Source: Acetivibrio saccincola (GTDB lineage: Bacteria; Bacillota; Clostridia; Acetivibrionales; Acetivibrionaceae). From it: a stretch of DNA of 64,000 nt. Every line of letters begins with the position of its first letter. Position 1 is the first letter of the stretch. Positions 19,010-28,809 of this stretch are shown one piece after another. Location: positions 310,001-374,000 of the forward strand of contig NZ_CP025197.1 of the NCBI RefSeq assembly GCF_002844395.1. The letters are read 5' to 3'. The notes below the pieces were generated by a model. The model was not told where the DNA came from, did no database searches, and saw nothing but the letters and a program-made list of their open reading frames with translations. The position numbers were made by a program, and so were the translations under genes.

Positions 19010-19037
19010 GAACCTCCTCAATTTATGAGGAGGTTTT
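19010..19037 (+). terminator. Terminator of the tRNA gene
   Basis: AACCTCCTCA and TGAGGAGGTT form a 10-bp stem followed by TTTT. The stem also contains the last codons of the convergent ABC permease gene, whose stop lies in the loop. Confidence 0.8.
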
Positions 19038-19919
19038 TACTTTTTTATACTGCCTGAAAGCCGCTATAATTCCCTTTTGAGGAGAAATAATAAATGCAAG
19101 GAAAAACATTATGCCAGAAACAGTTGCCATAGAGCCGGAAATTGAAACGTCCAGAAGATGTGCAGCCTGGTAGCCTAAAATACCTGAAAGTATACCCAGT
19201 ATGGCACTTATTAGTATCATAAACTTTAGTTTATCCGTTAAAAGATACGCTGTTAGCGGGGGTACAACCATAAGAGCCACTACAAGTATTGAGCCCACTG
19301 TATCGAATGCCCCGATGGCAGTTATAGAAACAACCGTCATAAGCCCATAGTGGACTATGCCCGGGCTAAATCCCAATACAAAGGCAAGCCCCGGGTCAAA
19401 GGCTGATATTTTTAATTCTTTATAAAAAAGAGAGATAAACAAAATGTTAACGATAAGTATAGCTGTCATGATGTAAAGGGATTTTGGTCCTAAATCAATA
19501 TTTCCAATATAAAACCTTCTAAAGGGGGCAAAGGCAATTTCACCAAGCAAAACTGCATCTGTATCAAGGTGGACATTCCGGGCATATTTTGAAATGATAA
19601 TTACACCAACACTGAAAAGTGAAGTAAAAACAAGACCTATGGCGGAATCTTCAGAAACTAGATTTGTATTTTTCAAAATTTCAACTAAAAAGACCGTAAC
19701 TAATCCTGTGGCGGTGGCTGCTACTATAAGAAGAGGGGAGTGGATATCTTTTGTATACAAAAAGGCAATTGCAATTCCTGCTAAAATAGAATGGCTTATG
19801 GCGTCACTCATCATTGCCATTTTCCTAAGCACTAAAAAAGTGCCTGCCAATGTGCAGGCAAGACTTGTAACAACAGCTATTAATTGAATTTCAAACTGAG
19901 GGCTAATCATATAAATCAC
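19023..19919 (-). CDS. Metal ABC transporter permease (Mn/Zn/Fe type), second permease
   Basis: A 298-aa ABC-3 family integral membrane protein with eight or nine hydrophobic segments. The typical DAISHSILAG motif near residue 37 and the family GAFDTVGSILVVALMVVPP motif (about 200-220) identify it as a TroD/ZnuB/MntB-type permease. It is the last gene of a four-gene minus-strand operon (binding protein, ATPase, permease, permease), 9 nt after the preceding permease. Two different permeases point to a heterodimeric TroCD-like pore rather than a ZnuB homodimer. Confidence 0.93.
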   Translation of the reverse strand: MIYMISPQFEIQLIAVVTSLACTLAGTFLVLRKMAMMSDAISHSILAGIAIAFLYTKDIHSPLLIVAATATGLVTVFLVEILKNTNLVSEDSAIGLVFTSLFSVGVIIISKYARNVHLDTDAVLLGEIAFAPFRRFYIGNIDLGPKSLYIMTAILIVNILFISLFYKELKISAFDPGLAFVLGFSPGIVHYGLMTVVSITAIGAFDTVGSILVVALMVVPPLTAYLLTDKLKFMILISAILGILSGILGYQAAHLLDVSISGSMATVSGIMFFLAFIISPQKGIIAAFRQYKKVKTSS

Positions 19920-19928
19920 CTTCTAACT

Positions 19929-20849
19929 TTACCTTCTGATTGTAGTTTTCAAATTATTTTTAAAAGTCAGATTATTTTTGTGAGCAGAAATAAGTCTGCT
20001 TATTATACCCCTTTTAGGTGCAAATAAAAGGGAAAATGCAAACAGTGCAAAACTAATAAGAACAATTACCGGACCTGTGGGCATATTAGGGGTTTTGCTG
20101 CTTATTAATGTCCCTGTTATGCCTGATACCGCCCCAAAAAACCCTGCAAGTGCAGCCATTATTTCCAGCCTGTCAGTCCACTGCCTGCCGGCAGAGGCAG
20201 GTGCAATGAGCATGGCACTCATCAGCACAACTCCTACCGTTTGAAGACCTGTAACTATTGCCACAACTATAAGGCAAGTGAGCAGGATATCTATTTTTTT
20301 CATAGGAAGGCCAATGGTATAGCCAAACTCAGGGTTAAATACAAGGAGTTTAAACTCTTTCCAGAAGACAAAGGTTATGATAAGGGCTATGCCACTTAAA
20401 ATGCCCATTGTAATAATGTCTTCTTTAAGGAGGGTCGCAGCCTGGCCAAATAAAAATTTATTCAGCCCAGCCTGCCTGGAATTAGGGAGCTTTTGTACAA
20501 CACTTAACATTACCAACCCAAAACCAAAAAAAACAGACAATACAATTCCAAGAGCCCCGTCGTATTTTATTTTGGAATATTTTACAATAAACATCATGCA
20601 TAAAGAGGAAACCCACCCGGAAATTAAAGCACCTGATAAAAGCACAACAGGAGAAGAGCTTTTAGTAAGTAAAAATGCAATAGCTATACCAGGAAGGGCA
20701 GAGTGTGAAACGGCATCTCCTAAAAGGCTTTGTTTTCTTAAAAGTGTAAATGTTCCTAAGATGCCTGAGGTAATTCCTAGTATTCCGGAGCCCAATAAAA
20801 CAGTCCTCAACGTATAATCCTGAAATATTGAAAGCAGATATCCAATCAT
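19929..20849 (-). CDS. Metal ABC transporter permease (Mn/Zn/Fe type), first permease
   Basis: A 306-aa ABC-3 permease, paralogue of the next gene. It shows [13 protein letters not shown] (about residue 44), [16 protein letters not shown] (about 205) and multiple hydrophobic helices. Its start overlaps the ATPase stop by 4 nt (ATGA), so the two are translationally coupled. Together with the other permease it should form the membrane channel for Mn(II), Zn(II) or Fe(II). Confidence 0.93.
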
Positions 20850-21646
20850 ATTTTTTCACCCCTTAATAGGGCGCTTTTGGTGCTTTTATAGATGCTTTTT
20901 TCATTCTCTATTATGATGTTTTGACAGGGGATTTCAGGGGAGCTGTAAGTTTCAGCCAGGTTTTCTTCTGTAAACACTTCTTTACAGGGACCTAATGCAA
21001 TACACTTTACATTTAACATCATTACCCAGTCAAAATACTCAACAACGGTTTCTAAATTGTGGTGGACGGCTATAATTGTTTTTCCTTTATTTTTTAGCTC
21101 TTTAATAAGATTTATTATTGCTTTTTCAGTGAGGGCGTCCACCCCTTGAAATGGTTCATCCATCAGGTAGAGGTCAGCATCCTGCACCAAAGCCCGTGCC
21201 AAAAAAGTACGCTGCTGCTGTCCTCCTGATAATTTGCTTATTTGTCTGTTGCAGTACTCCTTCATGCCAAGTTTCCCCAATGCATTTAATGCCAGCTGTT
21301 TTTCTTTTTTACCGGGTCTTTTAATCCAGCCAATACTGCCATAAAGCCCCATTGTAACCACATCAAGTACTGTTGTGGGAAAATCCCAGTCCACACTTTC
21401 CCTTTGAGGAACATATGCAACTTTTTTCCTTACACTCTTGTAGGGTTTGCCGTATATTTTTACCCTTCCTGCCACAGGTTTTATAAGACCCAGCAAAGAC
21501 TTTATAAAGGTACTTTTACCGGCCCCGTTAGGACCTATAATTCCCATTATAATACCTTCAGGTACATCTATATTTATATCCCACAGCACAGGTTTATCAC
21601 CGTATGCTGCGGTAAGTGAATTTACTTCTAATACTTTTTTACACAT
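20846..21646 (-). CDS. Metal ABC transporter ATP-binding protein
   Basis: A 266-aa ABC ATPase. Walker [10 protein letters not shown] (about residue 37), Q-loop [12 protein letters not shown], signature [15 protein letters not shown] and Walker [14 protein letters not shown] are all intact. The [10 protein letters not shown] segment is typical of manganese/zinc importer ATPases. It lies 112 nt downstream of the binding-protein gene in the same direction, with no terminator between them. Confidence 0.95.
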
Positions 21647-21758
21647 GATTACTACCTCTTAATATTTTATTTTTTATATGTTATTTTGATTTTTTATACT
21701 AATTTAAGTTAATTTGCTGTTTTATACGGTTTATTTAATATGTTTTATTTATTATGCT

Positions 21759-22730
21759 CTACTGTTTCAGGGCATCTACAATGGTATCAACATTGTGTTT
21801 TATCATTCCTGTGTATGTCCCTTCTGCTTCATCAGGGTCTCCCAGGGAGTCTGAAAAGAGTTTTCCCCCTATTTTTACATTGAACCCTCTTGACAAAACA
21901 GCTTCCTGAAGTGCCTCAATGTGGCGGGTTTGAACCGATGTCTCAACAAATATTGCAGGTACTTTATGCTGCAGTATAAATTCTGCTAAGTTTTTTACAT
22001 CTAAAATTCCTGCTTCTGTCTCTGTGCTGATTCCCTGAAGGCCAATGACTGTGAAATCGTATGCATTGCCAAAGTAAGCAAATGCGTCATGGGCTGTTAT
22101 TAAAATTCTTTTTTCTTTTGGAACTTCCAAAAGCTTCTTCTCTATGTATTCCTGCAGTTCATCCAGTTCTTTTAAGTAACTATCGGCATTATCGGCATAA
22201 ATTTCTGCATTTTCAGGGTCTAATGCCATAAGCTTTTCTTTGACAAACTCCACAACTTCTTTCCACAGCCGGACATCAGACCATATATGGGGGTCATAAT
22301 TTTTTTCAAGACCTTCCTCTGGAGTAAGGAGCTTTGAAGTGTCTATGGCATTGGTAACTGCATATGTTGGTATATTTAATTTGGACATTTCTTCAAATAA
22401 ATCAGACATTTTACCCTCTAAATGAAGGCCGTTGTAAAAAATAACGTCTGCCTCTTGAAGTTTTTTTACATCACTTTCAGTAGCCTGGTAAAGGTGGGGA
22501 TCTACACCAGGTCCCATTAATCCATCCACTATTAAAATATTTTTCCCTAAAATGTTAACTAAATCTGTGAGCATGGTTGTAGTTGTAACAACCCTTAAAC
22601 TTTCATTACCTTGACAAAAATCATATCTATTGGAATTGCATTTACCTGTATTGGAAAAATAAATATACAAGCCAAAAAAGCCGGTGATTAAAATAAGAGA
22701 GCCAAATATGCACAAAAGAGCATTTTTCAT
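21759..22730 (-). CDS. Metal ABC transporter substrate-binding protein (TroA/ZnuA family)
   Basis: A 323-aa cluster-9 binding protein. An N-terminal hydrophobic segment (about 4-26) exports or anchors it. Candidate metal ligands are His in GVDPHLYQ (about 77), His in YDPHIW (about 146), His in ITAHDAFAYF (about 212) and an acidic residue in the C-lobe. No His-rich loop between lobes is present; such loops are common in Zn-specific ZnuA, so manganese is somewhat favoured. No canonical lipobox: Cys-31 lies in NTGKCNSN, so it may be membrane-anchored by an uncleaved signal. First gene of the operon. Confidence 0.92.
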   Translation of the reverse strand: MKNALLCIFGSLILITGFFGLYIYFSNTGKCNSNRYDFCQGNESLRVVTTTTMLTDLVNILGKNILIVDGLMGPGVDPHLYQATESDVKKLQEADVIFYNGLHLEGKMSDLFEEMSKLNIPTYAVTNAIDTSKLLTPEEGLEKNYDPHIWSDVRLWKEVVEFVKEKLMALDPENAEIYADNADSYLKELDELQEYIEKKLLEVPKEKRILITAHDAFAYFGNAYDFTVIGLQGISTETEAGILDVKNLAEFILQHKVPAIFVETSVQTRHIEALQEAVLSRGFNVKIGGKLFSDSLGDPDEAEGTYTGMIKHNVDTIVDALKQ

Positions 22731-22758
22731 TTGTCCATCCCCCTTTTAATATGCAAAG

Positions 22759-22786
22759 TAGATTAACAAAATTTTAGTCTATTATA
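22759..22786 (-). promoter_or_regulatory. Possible -10 element and dyad operator of the metal importer operon
   Basis: On the minus strand a perfect TATAAT (22781-22786) is followed by the imperfect dyad TAGACTAAAATTTTGTTAATC (22759-22781; one base trimmed here). No good -35 is seen at the right distance. A dyad just past the -10 is where DtxR/MntR-type metal repressors often bind; this assignment is inference. Confidence 0.3.
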
Positions 22787-22841
22787 TGCATTCCTAAGGG
22801 TGGGGGTTACTTATAGACATTTTGTAAAAGTAAAATTTTTA

Positions 22842-22870
22842 TTGAAAACATAATTCGGGTATAGTATAAT
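22842..22870 (+). promoter_or_regulatory. Sigma-A promoter of the mgtE leader
   Basis: TTGAAA (22842-22847), a 17-nt spacer and a perfect TATAAT (22865-22870). Predicted transcription start near 22877, giving a leader of about 380 nt before mgtE. Confidence 0.75.
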
Positions 22871-22907
22871 TACAAGGCAGGTTCTAAAGAAAGATTATAT
22901 TAACGGA

Positions 22908-23006
22908 GGTGGTAGAAATGGATCCTGGGCCCATTTATAAGTATAGCATTATTAAAACATCATGGTATAGAAGGAACGTTCTACCACTTTTATTCATATA
23001 AAAGTG
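22908..23006 (+). promoter_or_regulatory. Mutually exclusive hairpins in the mgtE leader
   Basis: GTGGTAGAA (22909-22917), directly between the leader-peptide Shine-Dalgarno and its ATG, pairs perfectly with TTCTACCAC (22979-22987) near the end of the leader ORF. CACTTTTAT (22985-22993) pairs perfectly with ATAAAAGTG (22998-23006) around the leader stop codon. The two stems share CAC at 22985-22987, so only one can form. No U-tract follows, so this does not look like a plain intrinsic terminator. No M-box riboswitch consensus is visible. Confidence 0.5.
22918..23001 (+). CDS. Candidate 27-aa leader peptide upstream of mgtE
   Basis: ATG at 22918 with the site CGGAGGTGG (spacing 6) and a stop at 22999-23001. 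The peptide begins MDPGPIYKYSIIK and ends in hydrophobic LPLLFI. An early Asp-Pro-Gly-Pro is reminiscent of MgtL (MEPDPTP), the enterobacterial mgtA leader in which acidic and proline residues destabilise ribosomes at low Mg. The ORF is embedded in the alternative hairpins of the leader. Coding is supported by the strong ribosome-binding site and promoter only; conservation has not been tested. Confidence 0.5.
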   Translation: MDPGPIYKYSIIKTSWYRRNVLPLLFI

Positions 23007-23254
23007 ATTAACCTTCCTTAACCAAATTTGTGTATGGTATTTTCAATTTAAAGCATAATACTACTATTAATTAATTCCAGTTAAGTTATTATTAACACTT
23101 TGATTTAAAGAAAGTTTTCGTTTACAGAAAATTTTCTTACTTGCTATTGTTGTGCCATACTCTTTATATAATAGCTTTGAGTATTATACAGTATGGCTTT
23201 ATGTCTATTATTGTTAGAAATTTTAGTTTTTTGAAAGTAAGAGAGGTGTTTACA

Positions 23255-25131
<1,877 letters not shown>

Positions 25132-25443: not shown

Positions 25444-28400
25444 ATGAAATTTATTAAAAGGAATGAAGGCGCAATATCCATTTTTTTGTGTATAGTTTTG
25501 CTGGTCATGATTGTATTAGCGGGCGTGTTGGTGGACGGTACAAGGCTTAATTTTTCTAAAACCCAGGTGGAAAGTGCTTTAGACAGTTCTTCAAAATCTG
25601 CTCTTGCCAATTACAATTACAAATTAAAGGAGCTTTATGGACTTATGGCTCTGTCTGATAGCGACCCGGAAGTGTTAAAGGACGGGATTTTGTATTATTT
25701 TGAAAGAAATTTAATGGTAAGGGGCATTGAAGATGAAGAGGAAGCCTCCTTCCTGGATTTTTTCGGATTTGGGGGAAAGGAAGAAATACCACCTCTGGAT
25801 TTATATGATTACAGGGTGGAGGATTTAAAAGTCCAGCCTGTGTACAATTTATCAGAGCCAGAGGTTTTGCGGGCTCAAATATTAGAATATATGAAATACA
25901 GGGGACCAAAGGCATTGGCCACAGGTCTTATGGATAAATTTAAAATATTTGGTGATTTTAAAAAACAGACAGATATTCTGGAAAAGAAAATAGATGTTGA
26001 CGAAGATCTTACAGATATAAAGAAACATCAAATAAAGGCTTCTGACAATATGGCAACTGTAAACAGCTTTGGAAGGGATTTGGATGTTTCTTCTAAGTAT
26101 GAAGAACTGGCAGAGCATGTTGCAGATGCAATAAGTTTAGAAAAAGACTGTACAGAGCTGGAAAAAGAAATTGAAGAGCTGGATGATGATCTTAAAAGTG
26201 TTACTGATGAAATCGAAAAATATCAAGATGAAATAATGGAAATAGAAACGGAATTAATGCAAAAGATGCTGGAGGCCCTTGCAGAAGATAAGACCCCTCC
26301 TGATACTTCAGCAGAAGAAGAGAGAATACGCCTGCTTGGAGAGAAAGTAAATGAACTTCAGGAGGGCATTAAGGACAAAATAGCAGAAAAAGAAGAAAAA
26401 GAAAGCAAGCTAAATACCAAGAAGGAAGAGTTAAACAGCAAAAGAAGCAAAATAAGTGAAATAAATAATAAAATACTAAACAATCTGAAAAAATTTATAG
26501 ATACAGCAAAAGATACGGTATCTTCCCTTGAAACTGTGAGGGATAAGTCTGTAAGAACAGTTAAAAAAATTGACAGTATAAATGAAGAACTTGAAGGAGA
26601 AGTGAATGAATTTTCCGATTTTACAAGAATGGATTTAGGAAGCAAAAAAGAAACAATATCTGCAGAGGATATAAACCCTAAAATAGATGAGGTTAAGCAT
26701 AATTTGTCCATACTTGAAAGCATTAAGAAGAATATAGAAGAAAGTAAGGCGGATAAGCTTACTTTAGATGATTTTTCCGGCAGGGTACCTGGTTTAAATG
26801 AAGTAAAGGAAAAGTTAAATACAGGGTTTGTAAAAGAACAAATAAAAAGTTATAAAGGTATGGAAAATGGCAATGCCATAGACTATTATGTGGACAAAGG
26901 TGCCATTTCTGAAAAGTCAGATGATGAAGAAGACCCCAGGGATTTTTTCAATGAATTTGTTAAAAGCGGCGGGGTAGAAGATGATGAAAATAAAATAGAA
27001 GAGAATTTAAAGGAAATTCCAAAGGATGCCCCGTCTAAAGAAGGATACAGACCTACTGACATTGACGTTATAGAAAATGATGAAAAAATCATTGAGGGAA
27101 TACTAAAAATAATGGAAGAAATGGAGTATACCAGCAGCGAGTACAGTAATGATATTCTTTATAGTGGCGGCAAAGGTTTGGAGGATTTTGACGCAGGCAG
27201 TATGTCTTTTTCAAAGTCCGGCTCAGTAAAGAAAGCACTTTCTTTATTTTCCAAAATGGCAGAATTATTTGTAGATGGTGTAACAAAAGTCAGGGACGAC
27301 ATGTATATAAATGAATATATAATGGGAAATTTTTTGAATTACACCACAAACCCAGAAAAGGACTATGATTTACGTGGGAGACTTATGAAAGAAAGACCTG
27401 CTTTCTTTGATGCAAACAATGCAGATGTAGAATATATACTAATAGGTTCAGAGGAAGAATCCATAAACATTTTAGGAGTCAAAGCCCAGATAACACTTAT
27501 AAGGTTTGCACTAAATGCAATAGCAATATATACAGATCCGCAAAAGGTAAATGCAGCGTTAAAAACAGCAACTGCTGTGGCAGGTTGGACTGCAATAGGA
27601 GTTCCCATTGTTCACACACTGATTATGATGGGATGGGCAATGGCAGAGTCTATGTTTGATGTGAGTTTATTAATGAGAGGGGAAAGTATACCTATATTCA
27701 AAACCCGCAACACATGGATAACCGATCCTAAAAACATGGGAACTAAAATCAGGGAAATTTTTGAAAAAGAAGCAAAAAAGAAGGCAAAGGAAGTATCAGG
27801 ATATCTAATTAGCCAGGCGGAAGGTATGGTAGCCGGGTATGTAGGAAATGCAGGAGATGTTTTAGAAGATTATATACTGTCAAAGGTAGATGCCCTTGTA
27901 GATAAAGCTTTCATACATATAGAAAATCCAATAAGGGAAGGTATGCATTCAGCGGAAAATATTTTCAAAGATTTAGAACAGAGTATTAATGTGAAATTAG
28001 AGGGGGAAGTAGGTAATATTATAAATAGCATTGGAAATCATGTTGAGAGTTTGTTAAACAATAAAATTAGTATTTTTAAAAACAGCACTTTAGGGGATTT
28101 TGACCTAAGTAAAGATATAATTATGGGTGCTGATTTTACCGAACTTTTCCATGGATGTGAGGAGTTTCAGGTATTTAAAGGAATGAAAGTGGAAGATGCG
28201 GTGAAAGAACTGAAAATGTTGATTTCAAAGGGAGAGACTATAGGAAGTTTTACAGTTGAAGAGACAAGTTTGATGGTTAACAGTTTGATTTTTAATACCA
28301 TAGAAAATACAAAGGAAAAAATAAAAGAAGAGATAAAAGGAATGATACAAGAAAGTCTTAACCGTTTGAAAGAGAAATTTAATGAAGTTATTTCAAAAGC

Positions 28401-28809
28401 AGCAATGGAAGGAAAAGAAAAAGTAAATGAAATTATAGATTCCATAGGAAATAGCCCGGGAACCATAGGAAAAGGTGCCGGTGGTGTCAATTTATCTAAG
28501 GGAAAGATGGAGACAAATTTAAAGGCCTCTTTGGTTTCAATGAATTACAGTGACTATTTAAGGCTGCTTCTGCTTTTTGAAAGTGGCGAGAAAAAATTAA
28601 AGAGAATTGCAGATTTAATTGAGATGAATATGAGGAAGGAAACAGGGGATGTTAGTTTCAGCATGTCTAATTGCAGTACATATATAAGGGTAGAGGCCAC
28701 TGTTTCAATAAAATATCTTTTTATGACCCAGCCTTTTATGCCTGAAGAATATAGAAGAAATAAAGAAAGCAGGATAGAGTTTACCATTCCTCTGTATAAG
28801 GGTTATTGA
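25444..28809 (+). CDS. Large Tad-like / DUF5702-type envelope protein with coiled coils
   Basis: A 1121-aa protein. The N-terminus (NEGAISIFLCIVLLVMIVLA, then VDGTRLNFSKTQVESALDSS) is the TadE/TadG-like pseudopilin-type segment: one membrane helix at residues 10-31 followed by a helix that ends in a small-residue ALDSSSKSALANY stretch. The next KELYGLMALSDSD fits DUF5702 proteins. Strongly charged heptad-rich stretches (about 230-345 and 870-1010) predict long coiled coils. A second hydrophobic stretch lies at about 690-740. No other Tad pilus gene is in the window, so it looks like a free-standing wall-facing protein. Function unknown. Confidence 0.8.
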   Translation: MKFIKRNEGAISIFLCIVLLVMIVLAGVLVDGTRLNFSKTQVESALDSSSKSALANYNYKLKELYGLMALSDSDPEVLKDGILYYFERNLMVRGIEDEEEASFLDFFGFGGKEEIPPLDLYDYRVEDLKVQPVYNLSEPEVLRAQILEYMKYRGPKALATGLMDKFKIFGDFKKQTDILEKKIDVDEDLTDIKKHQIKASDNMATVNSFGRDLDVSSKYEELAEHVADAISLEKDCTELEKEIEELDDDLKSVTDEIEKYQDEIMEIETELMQKMLEALAEDKTPPDTSAEEERIRLLGEKVNELQEGIKDKIAEKEEKESKLNTKKEELNSKRSKISEINNKILNNLKKFIDTAKDTVSSLETVRDKSVRTVKKIDSINEELEGEVNEFSDFTRMDLGSKKETISAEDINPKIDEVKHNLSILESIKKNIEESKADKLTLDDFSGRVPGLNEVKEKLNTGFVKEQIKSYKGMENGNAIDYYVDKGAISEKSDDEEDPRDFFNEFVKSGGVEDDENKIEENLKEIPKDAPSKEGYRPTDIDVIENDEKIIEGILKIMEEMEYTSSEYSNDILYSGGKGLEDFDAGSMSFSKSGSVKKALSLFSKMAELFVDGVTKVRDDMYINEYIMGNFLNYTTNPEKDYDLRGRLMKERPAFFDANNADVEYILIGSEEESINILGVKAQITLIRFALNAIAIYTDPQKVNAALKTATAVAGWTAIGVPIVHTLIMMGWAMAESMFDVSLLMRGESIPIFKTRNTWITDPKNMGTKIREIFEKEAKKKAKEVSGYLISQAEGMVAGYVGNAGDVLEDYILSKVDALVDKAFIHIENPIREGMHSAENIFKDLEQSINVKLEGEVGNIINSIGNHVESLLNNKISIFKNSTLGDFDLSKDIIMGADFTELFHGCEEFQVFKGMKVEDAVKELKMLISKGETIGSFTVEETSLMVNSLIFNTIENTKEKIKEEIKGMIQESLNRLKEKFNEVISKAAMEGKEKVNEIIDSIGNSPGTIGKGAGGVNLSKGKMETNLKASLVSMNYSDYLRLLLLFESGEKKLKRIADLIEMNMRKETGDVSFSMSNCSTYIRVEATVSIKYLFMTQPFMPEEYRRNKESRIEFTIPLYKGY

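Follow-up and report, generated by a model that had tools for sequence, protein, structure and literature searches.

The window, the 64-kb stretch of the Acetivibrio saccincola genome analysed here, carries an mgtE gene encoding a protein with MgtE_N, CBS and MgtE domains, preceded by a leader with its own short ORF (Table 1). The host genome is a single 3.6-Mb contig, and its closest named relatives are Acetivibrio alkalicellulosi and Herbivorax. A protein search of the whole genome returned one MgtE copy only, and no match to CorA was found anywhere in the genome; MgtE is apparently the main magnesium-uptake protein of the cell. The original prediction had proposed a good promoter followed by a 27-codon ORF beginning MDPGP behind a strong Shine-Dalgarno (SD) sequence, and both were borne out, with the promoter matching the sigma-A consensus at 11 of 12 positions. 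The leader peptide matched no Pfam or NCBIfam model, and the leader matched no Rfam family at gathering score.

Table 1. Features of the mgtE leader and its surroundings, in window coordinates
Feature	Position	Strand	Remarks
Operon divergent from mgtE, common intergenic region	19023-22730	-	ZnuA-like binding protein, ABC ATPase and two ABC-3 permeases (Mn/Zn-type uptake)
Sigma-A-type promoter, TTGAAA-17 nt-TATAAT	22842-22870	+	Same hexamers in the aligned leader L003
Region 1 (A), P1 5' arm	22905-22917	+	Leader-ORF SD and spacer, GGAGGTGGTAGAA; ungapped helix with region 2; kept in relatives
Leader ORF, 27 codons	22918-23001	+	MDPGPIYKYSIIKTSWYRRNVLPLLFI; stop TAA at 22999-23001; acidic codon 2 kept upstream of relatives' mgtE
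Region 2 (B), P1 3' arm (anti-SD), partly also P2 5' arm	22979-22991	+	TTCTACCACTTTT; near the ORF end
P2 hairpin around the leader stop	22985-23006	+	9-bp stem, 22985-22993 with 22998-23006
Spacer between leader ORF and mgtE, 253 nt	23002-23254	+	Partly conserved in the genus; T-rich (C 0.11, G 0.14)
Genus-conserved spacer blocks	23041-23075 and 23155-23205		TTTTCAATTTAAAGCATAATAC; GTGCCATACTC...GAGTATTATAC.AGTATGG
mgtE SD, AGAGAGGTG	23240-23248	+	Weak 7-bp complementarity to region-2 CACTTTT in four genus members (low confidence)
mgtE	23255-24589	+	Presumed to be under leader control
1121-aa ORF	25444-28809	+	Hydrophobic N-terminal segment, charged coiled-coil-like repeats

Two stems compete within this leader. 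The first, P1, had been described as a perfect pairing of GTGGTAGAA with TTCTACCAC, which is correct but understated, since the true helix extends over 13 bp (22905-22917 with 22979-22991) and includes the whole SD of the leader ORF. The second, P2, is indeed a perfect stem, though it overlaps the P1 arm by 7 nt and not only by the CAC originally noted, and it can be extended to 22971-23019 (-15.5 kcal/mol). When the start region was blocked in imitation of a ribosome, the predicted fold went from P1 to extended P2. Among the 89 SD-preceded short ORFs of the window, the leader ORF ranks first for pairing of its start with its end. Folded as a single sequence, the leader does not stand out (z = -1.0), as would be expected if ORF and stems had arisen by chance in an AT-rich leader and mgtE were constitutive. 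Against this stand the class-wide conservation, the specific link with mgtE and the permutation tests described below; we give this reading next to no credence, the comparative data having refuted it in the main. The leader ORF and its two competing stems are real anatomy, and strongly supported as such.

Using a pattern for the start region (GGAGGTGG..ATGGA..C.G..CC), we found 10 matches in 58 genomes of the genus and order, and none in the reversed control. The pattern applied to the order was built from close relatives, and the order-level loci that it matched coincide with ORFs found upstream of mgtE in separate searches. A looser pattern gave 54 matches in 391 genomes of the class, compared with 5 in reversed controls, and in 44 of the 54 an mgtE gene lies 100-790 nt downstream; the other class-level matches resemble ordinary gene starts or chance. 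A Pro-type pattern run at the level of the phylum, mostly outside the class, yielded three matches vs four in reversed controls and thus no sign of spread by this pattern; the leader is present in L007, a Halanaerobiales MAG. The 44 mgtE-linked leaders were selected without any condition on ORF length, and 23 more came from an ORF search. In all 67 leaders of the combined set, frame 0 is open for at least 20 codons, compared with 46% and 4% for the other two frames. Five loci on the reverse strand (L092, L094, L099, L102 and L104) were left out of the evidence. In one relative (G024:C76, L006/L089 region), a single leader is followed by two adjoining mgtE copies.

A second sample was drawn blind to the leader: 86 mgtE genes were obtained by protein search of 291 genomes of the class, regardless of what preceded them, and for each we chose among the SD-preceded short ORFs solely by how well start and end pair, keeping the best. 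P1 pairing reached z < -3 in 43 of the 86 genes and in 4 on the reverse strand, which served as control. Asp or Glu occupied codon 2 in 32 of the 43 significant ORFs and in none of the four control ORFs. By these criteria, a large minority of the sampled mgtE genes lack such an ORF. With near-duplicates removed, codon 2 was acidic in 74% (the figure for the remaining SD-preceded short ORFs in these regions being 12%), while Pro was found at codon 5 in 46% and Asp or Glu at codon 4 in 21%. Codon 5 is mainly Pro, Ser or Gly and acidic in only 3%, and a second acidic residue, where there is one, lies at codon 4 or 6. The peptide starts include MDSDPLP, MDPGPLP and MDADPDD; many relatives have no proline and one early acidic residue only (MDAGGS, MESGGS), a weaker signal than the motifs that have been tested in enterobacteria. 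Taken across the class, the comparison confirms the expectation that the ORF start, the acidic codon 2 and the stems are kept in relatives. Two tandem leader ORFs with acidic starts precede a single mgtE clearly in L204 and L228 and probably in L219 and L235.

Codon 2 uses all four GAN codons, and Asp or Glu is also present there in 10 of the 14 leaders in which P1 falls short of this codon. Because all four codons occur and the acidic residue persists outside P1, the residue itself appears to be selected, which argues for selection acting on the peptide and not on the RNA alone. The same data bear on whether the RNA could be a metal- or ligand-binding riboswitch, with the ORF a passenger and P1/P2 the expression platform. 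Such an element would fit the conservation of both stems and the extra GGNCGAAGUA motif found within the ORF in some subfamilies, but it would explain neither a frame open in all leaders nor an acidic residue kept through four codons and beyond P1; with no aptamer-like conserved core and no Rfam match, we consider it improbable. The motif, or one like it, recurs inside the ORF (peptide ...GRS...) in L076, L081, L100, L164, L174, L175 and others; by eye it can pair with CTTTGTCC or TACTTCC adjoining the mgtE anti-SD, and it may be an extra RNA element.

The stems were compared across 57 non-redundant leaders by swapping the 5' and 3' halves between leaders. The P1 helix has a mean length of 12.0 bp, against 8.3 ± 0.22 bp in the swapped pairs, and the P1 duplex is correspondingly more stable in native leaders (-25.4 vs -19.4 ± 0.48 kcal/mol, 2000 permutations). 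The pairing of P2 (B with C) reaches -11.2 kcal/mol, compared with -8.9 ± 0.36 kcal/mol for swapped pairs. Between subfamilies the P1 arms are very unlike, yet they remain complementary inside each leader, as in L103 (GAGAACATG/CATGTTCTC), L156 (GTGAGATAATGGACGC/GCGTTTGTTATTTCAC) and L123 (GGTGGTAGTTATGG/CCATAACTACTATT). Within the alignable short-spacer subfamily, changes in P1 are almost all one-sided and of the G-U kind, and column covariation was not significant relative to column shuffles. The compensatory changes looked for in the stems are therefore seen as co-variation of the arms between subfamilies only, and the covariation argument rests on the between-subfamily swaps because covariation within the subfamily is not significant.

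How the switch would act on mgtE appears to differ with the length of the leader. In 32 leaders of middle length (117-290 nt from ORF start to mgtE), masking of the mgtE SD exceeds chance (z = -4.5), with L168, where the SD pairing joins CTTCCTACCTAAA to ATTAGGAGGAAA, as an example. Short leaders show only weak masking (z = -1.3); their ORF stops at the mgtE SD or, in several of them, overruns the mgtE start out of frame, and in some (L128, L143) one region can by eye pair with either region 2 or the mgtE SD. Many relatives can thus be read as having the 1:2, 2:3 and 3:4 layout of Salmonella mgtQ, in which the mgtE SD would be open to masking.

Among the long leaders, the window's included, spacers measure approximately 190-690 nt, SD masking is absent (z = +1.8) and neither a mask nor an intrinsic terminator was found. 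In the spacer of the window, no intrinsic terminator was detected by pattern, and only weak AT-rich hairpins are present. For four members of the genus, a consensus fold joins region-2 CACTTTT to the mgtE SD; it shows hardly any covariation and is a hint only. The genome encodes a protein with a Rho_N domain, and given that MgtL works by Rho-dependent termination (PMC11282234), an MgtL-like route would suit these long spacers: full translation of the ORF would expose the 253-nt spacer to Rho in the window's genus, whereas early drop-off would hide it. The spacer is T-rich and poor in C, unlike typical rut sites, and Rho control would leave unexplained the relatives in which the ORF reaches the mgtE start or runs past it; we hold this route to be possible for the genus but doubtful. 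The Mg-responsive leader peptide and switch originally predicted are partly supported as a whole, and strongly so in the ORF and the competing stems.

The M-box (ykoK) riboswitch, RF00380, is an RNA aptamer without an ORF that controls mgtE-type genes in Firmicutes. No M-box was found in the window at the Rfam gathering score, in positions 22600-23500 up to E = 10, or anywhere in the genome, so that the covariance-model search agrees with the original prediction, which had seen none before mgtE. The accompanying idea that the peptide replaces an absent M-box is too simple, since elsewhere the M-box and the ORF share leaders. A cmscan search of 60 mgtE upstream regions (L203-L262) identified 16 M-boxes, and in nine of these leaders an acidic-start ORF, poorly paired in L248, lies between the M-box and mgtE. 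In each of the nine, the M-box is followed by 165 nt or more, while six M-box leaders lacking the ORF have at most 130 nt to mgtE; L210 was left out of this comparison of lengths. The tandem of M-box and ORF was also found in L007, L009 and L100, and in L228 the M-box is followed by two ORFs (MESGSDS... and then MDFDPLPSN...).

Because the ORF is constantly associated with mgtE and the M-box and ORF occur in tandem, a link to Mg2+ is supported. The ORF could also be a genuine attenuator of mgtE that answers to a signal other than Mg2+ itself, such as charged tRNA-Pro or tRNA-Asp, osmotic stress via proline or the general state of translation. There is precedent in Salmonella mgtP, which senses proline by a Pro-rich leader ORF (PMC3641672), and the clostridial ORFs have an excess of Pro at codons 5 and 7. 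However, many relatives have no Pro codons and keep the acidic codon 2, the runs of a single amino acid typical of classical attenuators are lacking, and the M-boxes in the same leaders point to Mg2+, so we regard such a signal as unlikely, if less so than a riboswitch.

Given the acidic or proline-like start, the folding of the start onto the end and the recurrence across Clostridia, translation of the leader ORF probably informs the control of mgtE and decides whether mgtE is made. The reading that we favour, with some confidence, is that these mgtE leaders constitute a new ribosome-sensing family that evolved convergently with mgtL and mgtQ, and through which low Mg2+ would raise mgtE. The sensor would be the ribosome on the translated ORF at the 5' end of the mgtE mRNA. 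With the ORF unoccupied, region 1, holding its SD and start, would pair with region 2 in its 3' part to form P1. A ribosome held at the first codons (Asp/Glu at codon 2 in a Pro/Gly-rich context), or aborting and reloading there, would cover region 1 and free region 2 to pair with region 3 at the ORF stop, forming P2. Formation of P2 would turn mgtE on in the many clostridial relatives where the mgtE SD (region 4) would otherwise be masked by region 3 or an adjacent segment. With enough Mg2+, smooth translation would clear the ORF, P1 or a ribosome at the stop codon would prevail and mgtE would stay low; since low Mg2+ would destabilise ribosomes most at acidic and proline starts, the leader would then raise mgtE. 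From these comparisons, we infer translation of the ORF, destabilisation of the ribosome as trigger, Mg2+ as signal, the direction of control and, for the window's genus, the output step.

Mg2+ sensing through ribosome stability on acidic and proline leader peptides has been described for enterobacterial mgtA and mgtB (PMC11282234, PMC8092293). The closest known arrangement is that of mgtQ, an 8-codon ORF between Salmonella mgtC and mgtB with Asp at codon 2, where a ribosome on region 1 is proposed to free region 2 to pair with region 3 and so release region 4, ribosome-aborting acidic codons favouring this outcome (PMC8092293). The clostridial leaders resemble it in their short ORF with a strong SD before a Mg2+ transporter gene, in the acidic codon 2 and in the alternative stems 1:2 and 2:3. 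Stem 3:4, with the transporter SD as region 4, has a counterpart in many relatives, clearly so in the middle-length group, weakly in the short one and not in the long one, to which the window belongs. A second acidic codon at position 5, part of the mgtQ type, is not the rule in the sampled leaders. They also differ from mgtQ in phylum, in the target (the MgtE channel vs the P-type MgtB), in the position and length of the ORF (about 22-65 codons in a 5' leader, as opposed to intergenic) and in that stem 1:2 covers the SD and start of the ORF itself, with no SD mask found in the window's genus.

The leader peptide MgtL (MEPDPTPLP) precedes mgtA in Salmonella and Escherichia coli, its output being Rho-dependent termination (PMC11282234 and works cited there). 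The alternation of acidic residues and Pro at its start recalls MDSDPLPG, MDPGPLPS and MDADPDD, likewise before a Mg2+ uptake gene; in the window the EPDP-like start takes the form MDPGP, and the combination of an acidic codon 2 with Pro at codon 5 is common without being universal. In contrast, mgtA encodes a P-type ATPase and the gene here is mgtE, and many clostridial peptides have neither Pro nor a second acidic residue; we claim no sequence homology. In Mycobacterium tuberculosis, an M-box is followed by a conserved ORF (uORF2/Rv1805A) in a Mg2+-responsive leader with SD/anti-SD pairing (PMC12810186), but in that system the ORF is the target of M-box control and its peptide has been described as restricted to mycobacteria, whereas the start of the clostridial ORF pairs with its own end and the ORF precedes mgtE. 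The mgtE motif, a riboswitch candidate upstream of mgtE that is described as exclusive to Thioalkalivibrio (PMC11109978), is likewise proposed to be a cis-regulatory RNA, and its description includes no leader ORF. Searches of the open-access PMC literature turned up no description of a leader peptide for mgtE in clostridia. As for the M-box, it sometimes shares a leader with the clostridial ORF, and the difference is that none is present in the window or the host genome.

Whether nascent-peptide leaders that sense Mg2+, arisen independently of enterobacterial mgtL and mgtQ, are a major mode of mgtE control throughout the class, alone or stacked with the M-box, seems to us an evenly balanced question. 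If so, the same peptide signature and switch logic would serve another transporter in a distant phylum and in many families, and would count as a solution reached repeatedly, not as a peculiarity of enterobacteria. The leaders would form a large natural data set on which early codons destabilise ribosomes, and those in tandem pose the question of why an M-box and a peptide sensor are combined. For genomes that, like this one, have neither an M-box nor CorA, such leaders would explain how mgtE is controlled by Mg2+.
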